This document shows positions 34,087-34,906 of a stretch of DNA of 39,983 nt, one piece after another. This stretch comes from Candidatus Latescibacterota bacterium (lineage in GTDB: Bacteria > Latescibacterota > UBA2968). A program made the translations under genes and the position numbers. The stretch covers positions 1 to 39,983 of the forward strand of contig JAGWBW010000007.1 in NCBI GenBank assembly GCA_021295695.1, in the 5' to 3' direction. Positions within the stretch are counted from its first letter, which is position 1. Each line of letters begins with the position of its first letter. Below the pieces are notes generated by a model. The model saw only the letters and a program-made list of their open reading frames with translations. It searched no databases and was not told where the DNA came from.

Positions 34087-34204
34087 GTCATTTTGAGCCT
34101 TTCGGCTACGCTCAAGATAAACTCCGCGCAGCGGAGTCGAAAAATCTACTACCAACGCAGGTGGAACAGATGCTTCGGCTCCGTTCCACTCCGCTCAGCA
34201 TGAC
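34087..34204. repeat. Palindromic intergenic repeat element with imperfect terminal inverted repeats
   Basis: A 118-bp stretch bounded by GTCATTTTGAGC (34087-34098) and GCTCAGCATGAC (34193-34204), 12-bp inverted ends with two mismatches. It contains an internal hairpin ACTCCGC-GCA-GCGGAGT (34121-34137) and several CTTCGGCT/CCACTCCGC words. This style (GTCATTnTGAGC...GCTCAGnATGAC) resembles dispersed intergenic palindromes known from many bacterial genomes. It has no coding capacity, and only one copy is seen here. The rest of the 33993-34263 gap is AT-rich with no gene. Confidence 0.7.
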
Positions 34205-34263
34205 TTGTAAATAGGATGAAAACACTTAATCAGATCCGGAGTCAATTGTCCATGGAGGTGAAC

Positions 34264-34494
34264 ATGTTCACCTGTTCGAATTGTGGTGCAGAAGAAAGCC
34301 GTGAGGAGTTGGTAGAAGAGATCTTCCAGATTGAGGGGAAATACGTCCTGATAGATCGCATTCCAACTACGGTATGTAATCGTTGCGGTGAAGAGATATT
34401 CAGCCGCGAAACCGCAGAAAAGATTCGCCTAATGGTCCATGGACAGGCAAAACCGAAAAAGTCCATCTCCTTGAAGGTATTTGAGTTCGCTTAA
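34264..34494 (+). CDS. YgiT-type zinc-finger protein (MqsA-like antitoxin N-terminal domain)
   Basis: A 76-residue protein with two CxxC knuckles, C4-S-N-C7 and C38-N-R-C41, separated by a short strand region (GKYVLIDRIP). This matches the YgiT/MqsA zinc-binding domain with no HTH attached. Such small proteins are usually encoded next to a DUF4258/MqsR-like toxin, but no such gene lies on either side. Upstream is the palindromic repeat and downstream, after 19 bases, the UGA-containing Spx/ArsC-like gene. The ATG at 34264 is chosen because GGAGGTGA lies just before it; an ATG at 34216 is in frame but has no comparable signal. The role is unknown and it may be an orphan antitoxin. Confidence 0.8.
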   Translation: MFTCSNCGAEESREELVEEIFQIEGKYVLIDRIPTTVCNRCGEEIFSRETAEKIRLMVHGQAKPKKSISLKVFEFA

Positions 34495-34513: not shown

Positions 34514-34873
34514 ATGTCCAAAATCAACTTTTACACCTGGAACAGATGAAGCACCTGTCGCAAGGTGAAAGCGTGGCTTTCACGAGAAGGCGTGAATTTT
34601 GAGGAGAGGGATTTCTTCAGGGATGAATTCACAGAGGAAGAACTCAGGGAATTGCTCGGCGACACTCCGCCCTTCGACATATTCTCGTGGCGGAGTCCCT
34701 CGGCACGAACGCTGAAACTCGACCGGGAGAAAGTATCGGCAGATGAACTGATTCGCCTCATGATTGAACAGCCCCGGCTGATACGCCGTCCACTGATATA
34801 CACCGGAGACCGGCTATTCGCAGGCACGGACAAAGAAGCGATGGCGGAGGCATTTCCCGGGTACAATCTGTGA
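34514..34873 (+). CDS. Spx/ArsC-like thioredoxin-fold protein, probable selenoprotein (UGA = Sec at codon 12)
   Basis: A 119-codon gene with one in-frame TGA at 34547-34549. Reading it as selenocysteine gives MSKINFYTWNR-U-STCRKVKAWL. This aligns with Spx/ArsC starts of the form LYTSPSCTSCRKARAWL, the TGA sitting exactly on the first Cys of CxxC (U12-x-x-C15). The rest is a complete ArsC/Spx fold: ERDFFRDEFTEEEL, SWRSPSAR (58-65) and the LIRRPLIY motif (R91-R92-P93), ending at the usual length. A perfect hairpin starts 15 bases after the TGA, as expected for a bacterial SECIS. The gene would be an oxidoreductase or regulator acting through a selenylsulfide. The alternative is a nonsense mutation of TGC/TGT, with a truncated product from the GTG at 34565. 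Confidence 0.8.
34565..34583 (+). promoter_or_regulatory. Candidate bacterial SECIS hairpin
   Basis: GTGAAAGCGTGGCTTTCAC forms a perfect 8-bp stem with loop GTG (or CGTGG if the top pair opens). It begins 15 bases after the TGA codon, placing the loop about 24 bases downstream. A G-containing apical loop at this distance fits bacterial SECIS rules. A smaller competing stem (CACCT/AGGTG) lies between. No bulged U as in E. coli fdhF is seen. Confidence 0.6.
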
Positions 34874-34877
34874 TAAA

Positions 34878-34906
34878 AAAAAGCCAGACGCAATGTCTGG
34901 CTTTTT
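34878..34906. terminator. Bidirectional rho-independent terminator
   Basis: AAAAAGCCAGAC (34878-34889) and GTCTGGCTTTTT (34895-34906) form a 12-bp stem with a 5-base loop. It has A-rich and T-rich flanks. It lies between the selenoprotein gene and the convergent dehydrogenase gene. Confidence 0.9.

Follow-up and report, generated by a model that had tools for sequence, protein, structure and literature searches.

A probable selenocysteine-containing relative of Spx and ArsC in Latescibacterota

Overview

We analysed a stretch of 39,983 nucleotides from a Candidatus Latescibacterota bacterium (contig JAGWBW010000007.1; the whole stretch is called the window below). It carries a Spx/ArsC-type gene which in all likelihood encodes a selenoprotein, the product being most likely an oxidoreductase of the thiol-disulfide type that would use Sec12 and Cys15 and belong to a branch related to Spx, YffB and ArsC. 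For its codon, machinery, conservation, hairpin and predicted fold, this main reading is based on sequence. A selenoprotein had been proposed in a preliminary description of the same DNA; this reading is strongly supported by the conserved TGA, by the selenocysteine machinery present in the genome and by the comparative evidence for the hairpin.

The gene and its reading frame

The features are collected in Table 1. When positions 34514-34870 are translated, the product begins with MSKINFYTWNR-U-STCRK, the single internal TGA is codon 12, and a terminal TGA (34871-34873) closes the frame. The preliminary description had placed an in-frame TGA on the first catalytic residue of a CxxC motif of the Spx/ArsC kind, in a frame intact on both sides that kept its Arg-Arg-Pro motif. 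We found exactly this, in a protein of 119 residues with the motif at residues 91-93. It had also foreseen that an ordinary annotation would begin at the GTG at 34565, and the ordinary listing of open reading frames does give one of 102 amino acids from that codon. This indicates an annotation error, in which the start is called 3' of the selenocysteine codon and the active site is lost. An Rfam scan of the window gave no match at the gathering score, and a search of viral contigs gave no relative.

Table 1. Features of the probable selenoprotein locus in the window
Feature	Position	Strand	Basis
YgiT-type zinc-finger (antitoxin-like) ORF, upstream neighbour	34216..34494	+	TIGR03831 38.6 bits; 4/9 orthologous loci
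Spx/ArsC-type (thioredoxin-fold) gene, internal TGA read through, 119 residues	34514..34873	+	ATG start, TGA stop; profiles, AlphaFold2, Foldseek
TGA codon 12, predicted selenocysteine, residue 1 of UxxC	34547..34549	+	TGA in 9/9 orthologues of the genus, also in distant Sec homologues; 20/20 Cys homologues scored have TGT/TGC
TGT codon 15, predicted resolving cysteine of UxxC	34556..34558	+	near-invariant in a 30-row alignment (Val in L025)
Predicted bacterial SECIS hairpin	34565..34583	+	stem of 8 bp, loop GUG of 3 nt; distance from TGA 15 nt (hairpin) and 23 nt (loop)
Arg-Arg-Pro motif of the ArsC/Spx fold, codons 91-93	34784..34792	+	30 rows: R92 and P93 invariant, R91 nearly so
Terminator-like hairpin 3' of the gene	34878..34906	+	13 pairs, T-run; 2 such sites in the region, shuffle mean 1.0

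Conservation of the TGA codon and presence of the machinery

Of the 64 genomes of the phylum searched, 9 have the gene at a threshold of E 1e-12. These all belong to a single genus of 11 genomes, and the same search found no copy in the other two. All nine carry TGA at the identical codon. After the TGA, the window gene and seven same-genus orthologues (L021 was omitted, its protein being equal to that of L022) have dN values of 0.026-0.142 for dS values of 0.23-0.94. The homologues thus show no decay downstream of the TGA, and the gene, as judged from these substitution rates, evolves under purifying selection. A sequencing error that turned TGC or TGT into TGA is ruled out, because one codon is affected in nine same-genus genomes and in distant homologues as well. 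An alignment of homologues, which the preliminary description had called for at codon 12, has TGA in the genus and in the distant Sec forms and cysteine in every non-Sec homologue scored, so that the in-frame UGA falls on the redox residue which is a cysteine elsewhere.

The genes for selenocysteine insertion, also proposed as a check, are all in the same assembly, a draft of 5.33 Mb in 415 contigs. The tRNA-Sec gene (selC) scores 73 bits and is called tRNA-SeC, anticodon tca, by ARAGORN. It adjoins selD (362 bits), which has its own Sec codon (SCGGU). The selA gene (578 bits) is adjacent to selB, and selB scores 345 bits over 344 of 581 positions; a contig end cuts this gene, leaving the SECIS-reading C-terminal domain outside the sequence. 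Across the genus, tRNA-Sec is above the cut-off in 11 of 11 genomes.

The predicted SECIS hairpin

The preliminary description had pointed to a perfect hairpin, with G in its loop, 15 bases after the TGA. It is indeed there: GTGAAAGC at 34565-34572 and GCTTTCAC at 34576-34583 pair perfectly over 8 bp around a GTG loop (34573-34575). According to the accessible part of PMC13188914, a bacterial SECIS has a stem of 4-16 bp, a loop of 3-9 nt with G in one of its first two positions and lying 16-37 nt from the UGA, and an energy of at most -7.5 kcal/mol. The present hairpin conforms on every point, its energy taken bare being -8.6 kcal/mol. Its value in isolation is nevertheless small, since 39 of the 1259 TGA trinucleotides on both strands of the window (about 3%) satisfy the rules on loop G and spacing with a hairpin of 8 bp or more, and folding of the single sequence over 54 bases gives z = -1.23, which is not significant. 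The hairpin by itself is weak evidence, and the case for it therefore depends on comparison.

In the nine genus sequences, codons 16-23 and the first base of codon 24, that is the entire stem and loop, are identical. Degenerate codons whose amino acid is invariant are frozen in 7 of 7 cases within codons 16-25 as against 15 of 61 elsewhere (p 1.8e-4); the range was picked after the alignment had been viewed, and a permutation over any 10-codon window gives 0.009. The helix was then compared over 31 Sec-coding rows, aligned free of gaps, with the distant L025, L026 and L035 included and L016, L030 and duplicates excluded (alignment A2). Paired cells amount to 80.6% versus 63.2 after shuffling. 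The covariation is 0.448 versus 0.197 +/- 0.022, a value reached in 0 of 500 shuffles, the best slid register giving 0.231. Cells changed on both sides number 40 versus 14.4 (0 of 500 again). Both sides have changed in six of the eight pairs; as many were obtained in 14 of 500 shuffles and in one slid register. By this alignment, the helix shows compensatory changes across the 31 sequences.

The cysteine homologues behave otherwise. Of the Sec rows, 20 of 33 form at least 7 of the 8 stem pairs, as against 0 of 20 Cys rows (five duplicate loci, L046-L049 and L074, were removed), and 12 of 25 Sec rows still reach this level when the genus is collapsed to one row (p 0.002). The majority of these Cys rows stand farther off than the Sec rows; L078 and L086 alone fall in the same clade, with 5/8 pairs each. 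When any register is allowed, the mean stem is 7.1 bp for Sec and 4.3 bp for Cys rows, although two Cys rows reach 7 bp and the Sec row L084 only 4. Twelve of the 13 Sec rows that are off register form a different hairpin, 5-8 bp long and with G among the first two loop bases, L084 with its 4 bp being the last. Hence we consider that the hairpin goes beyond chance, because TGA and hairpin are conserved together in nine genomes, silent sites are frozen, the pairs covary and the Cys homologues are without it.

Homologues in Chloroflexota

Beyond the phylum, homologues first turned up in two Chloroflexi MAG records; they are 42% identical and have TGA at the same codon. Among 400 sampled Chloroflexota genomes, 46 have a homologue (E 1e-9), 42 of them with one TGA and 4 with Cys; in 20 of the 42, the TGA was located at codon 12, and the other 22 stand for a count of one TGA only. 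A tRNA-Sec is found in 41 of the 42 genomes of the TGA form and in 1 of the 4 of the Cys form; with G291 left out, the figures are 40 of 41 versus 1 of 4 (Fisher p 0.0011). None was found, under stricter filters, in the TGA-form genome G473, nor in G094, the source of the distant Sec row L035. Outside the genus and the Chloroflexota sets, seven further genomes have a tRNA-Sec in 3 of 4 Sec-form and 2 of 3 Cys-form cases, so that codon and machinery are not closely linked there. Other distant genomes with one-TGA rows (G015, G029, G030, G045, G198 and G213, for example) enter with their TGA count alone.

In a quick tree of 53 rows, one clade (SH-aLRT 95) unites 23 Sec with 2 Cys rows and draws on both phyla; the deep branches are weak, and the tree implies at least 7 changes between Sec and Cys. 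The gene is confined to one Latescibacterota genus and nested among Chloroflexota forms, which suggests that this genus may have gained it horizontally.

Two observations concern single rows. The Chloroflexota genes L078 and L086 are the Cys forms inside the Sec clade; with their reduced stems, they are candidates for a recent Sec-to-Cys change accompanied by a decaying SECIS. The Sec homologue L025 has U-G-T-V instead of UxxC, and the search match has a further TAG near its end; it may be a form with a single Sec, or merely a shorter protein.

Genomic neighbourhood and a second putative Sec gene

The preliminary description had remarked on the YgiT-type neighbour as an unusual context. The neighbour is real, as its TIGR03831 score attests, but it is no fixed feature of the locus; we rejected it as a functional partner of the selenoprotein and take it to be incidental, because it occurs at four of the nine orthologous loci only. 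Between a dehydratase-type gene and the Sec gene, the genus loci have DUF4258 and YgiT (2 loci), YgiT alone (2, including the window) or neither (5). The dehydratase-type gene, of the D-galactarate/altronate kind, precedes the Sec gene in 8 of 9 genus loci (L024 is the exception), and genes for a Gfo/Idh oxidoreductase, SRAP and an amidohydrolase follow the Sec gene in the window. The Chloroflexota loci have different neighbours, with a ribose-phosphate pyrophosphokinase near the gene in L050 and L075. No neighbour indicates a substrate among the 15 loci for which neighbours were tabulated, some of them with family names.

The YgiT ORF of the window (34216-34494) opens with MKTLNQI.SQLS, and so does the DUF4258 gene upstream of YgiT in L046 (4440-4981). 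Since these starts share residues, an internal deletion seems to have removed the DUF4258 partner in the window, so that an antitoxin-like gene remains as an orphan. The text 5' of this ORF (34090-34210) is non-coding and repeat-like (cgcgcagcggagtcg ... gctccgttccactccgctcagc), and an inverted-repeat scan of it found none.

Elsewhere in the same genome there is a second ArsC-type gene with TGA at the catalytic position (L016; G000:C203:4737-5081, minus strand). It reads NPN-U-SKSN, a UxxS motif, and an 8-bp hairpin whose loop begins with G follows the TGA. A row with one TGA that matches L016 is present in 9 of the 11 same-genus genomes, the position of the TGA having been checked in L016 only.

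Family and fold of the protein

The read-through protein scores 65.9 bits against Pfam ArsC (cut-off 24), and the part after the stop alone 53.6. Against NCBIfam TIGR01617 (Spx/MgsR), it reaches 82 bits for a curated cut-off of 75.05, which makes it a member; among the distant Sec relatives, L079 passes with 77.5 bits, and L075 (73.7), L035 (67.2), L089 (65.3) and L030 (55.6) stay below. The AlphaFold2 model is confident (pLDDT 91.2, pTM 0.82). Ranked by E-value in a Foldseek search of solved structures, Spx chains take places 1 to 7 and YffB and ArsC-type proteins follow; the TM-scores to YffB and ArsC are about equal to those for Spx (0.7-0.8) and do not separate them. By sequence, the nearest solved structures are the Spx entries 3l78 (2.5e-15) and 1z3e (1.3e-14), the ArsC-type entries coming at 1.4e-9 and weaker.

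We compared the protein with its known relatives. With Spx of B. subtilis and its kin, which includes the closest solved structures, it shares the place of the CxxC motif and the RRP motif; unlike Spx, it has Sec for Cys10 and a G52 loop shorter by two residues, and its host has an alpha-CTD without Tyr263. With ArsC arsenate reductase (TIGR00014, including its UxxS Sec form), it shares the fold and a Sec or Cys at position 12, but its motif is UxxC as opposed to UxxS or CxxS and its score is far below the cut-off. YffB (PDB 1rw1) is an ArsC-like protein of similar fold (Foldseek 4.8e-9), more distant in sequence (5e-7) than Spx.

Selenoproteins of this kind are on record. ArsC-like ones were noted in 2006 (PMC1794560), and the accessible passages of the Global Ocean Sampling survey (PMC2398784) describe Arsenate reductase 1, of UxxS type with 77 sequences, and Arsenate reductase 2, assigned to cd03032, of UxxC type with 42 Sec sequences and 238 Cys homologues. 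As cd03032 is ArsC_Spx (PMC8755942), a UxxC selenoprotein of the Spx-type ArsC domain is already known from these sources. Judged by its published description, Arsenate reductase 2 resembles the window protein, both being UxxC and the Spx-type match agreeing with cd03032; it comes from marine microbes, and the survey passages carry no organism assignment. A UxxS arsenate reductase and a UxxC arsenate reductase-like protein are both tabulated in the parts consulted of PMC9312934 and PMC13188914, the latter equating the UxxC protein with NF041106 (ArsC_rel_Se_1). That family shares the UxxC motif, the fold superfamily and the selenoprotein status with the window protein, which scores 32.3 bits against its cut-off of 85 and therefore belongs to a different family. 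In the literature searched, which covered few subscription journals (and included accessible parts of PMC12822559, PMC8318568 and PMC1794560), we found neither a Sec Spx in Latescibacterota or Chloroflexota nor a description of a mostly-Sec clade spanning the two phyla.

Alternative readings and proposed function

That the gene is no selenoprotein at all, being a pseudogene, an artefact of sequencing, a shortened gene that begins with the GTG at 34565 or one whose UGA encodes another residue, is extremely improbable. The 102-residue ORF from that GTG is what an ORF finder yields; against this, the TGA is common to nine genomes, the codons 5' of it are conserved, several relatives having AGGAG-like sites ahead of the ATG, and dN lies far under dS. 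Nothing points to a reassignment of UGA throughout the genome, because UGA still terminates this gene as well as the gene upstream of it, and no internal stop interrupts the matches to selA and selB. We also regard as very unlikely a selenium-dependent arsenate reductase, in which Sec12 would attack arsenate as Cys12 of E. coli ArsC does. The Pfam ArsC match, the invariant R92-P motif in the 30-row alignment and the fact that Sec12 and Arg60 are numbered as C12 and R60 of ArsC (the residues mutated according to PDB titles) would agree with it. The TIGR00014 arsC model gives 40.4 bits for a cut-off of 106, however; R60 is replaced by K or N in other members of the clade, Gly104 occupies what we take to be the place of the third ArsC arginine, no ars gene is among the four identified neighbours in the window, and the genome has the separate UxxS gene L016. 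The motif is UxxC, whereas the Sec arsenate reductases in the passages available of PMC2398784 and PMC13188914 are UxxS.

The proximity to Spx in sequence, in Foldseek E-values (the TM-scores of YffB and ArsC being similar) and in the TIGR01617 score could be explained by a Sec-based Spx, a redox-sensing transcription regulator that binds the alpha-CTD of RNA polymerase and in which a Sec12-Cys15 Se-S bond replaces the Cys10-Cys13 disulfide. G52 of Spx and Tyr263 of alpha are part of the Spx/alpha contact, as stated in the portion available of PMC2801614. Here, two residues are deleted at the DG of the G52 loop, a shortening common to the Sec-clade rows (A3), the host alpha-CTD (L094) reads SVRSANCLK for SVRSYNCLK in B. 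subtilis, with Ala for Tyr263, and three Spx-specific NCBIfam models are far below their cut-offs (70/123, 59/159 and 54/152 bits). We consider this regulator very unlikely, and no less doubtful, indeed slightly more so, is a Sec relative of Spx that would sense redox and act on transcription through a surface other than G52-Tyr263; if true, it would place a selenium redox switch in gene regulation. As the loop and the alpha-CTD disfavour the regulator, and the score, the motif and the neighbours disfavour the arsenate reductase, we favour a UxxC oxidoreductase, most likely one of the Spx/YffB branch that would work by way of a selenenylsulfide.

For this oxidoreductase, the actual insertion of selenocysteine, the Se-S chemistry, the reductant and the substrate are what we infer. 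SelA, SelD and tRNA-Sec would supply the Sec-tRNA, and SelB would recognise the hairpin (34565-34583) and have Sec inserted at the UGA at 34547. The Sec12 selenol may then attack an oxidised substrate, Cys15 would resolve the adduct, with a selenenylsulfide (Se-S) bond as the outcome, and thioredoxin, glutaredoxin or a low-molecular thiol would serve as the cellular thiol system that reduces the protein again, the conserved Arg91-Arg92-Pro loop being predicted to lie close to the active site.

Significance

What emerges is a clade of Spx-like proteins that is mostly Sec and is found in two phyla, its SECIS hairpin covarying and fixed in position. Because the Cys homologues examined are without the hairpin, the clade offers a clean natural set on which the SECIS rules and the exchange between Sec and Cys can be tested. 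Finally, the subfamily which NCBI labels as RNA-polymerase-binding regulators includes a Sec branch that probably acts as an enzyme.
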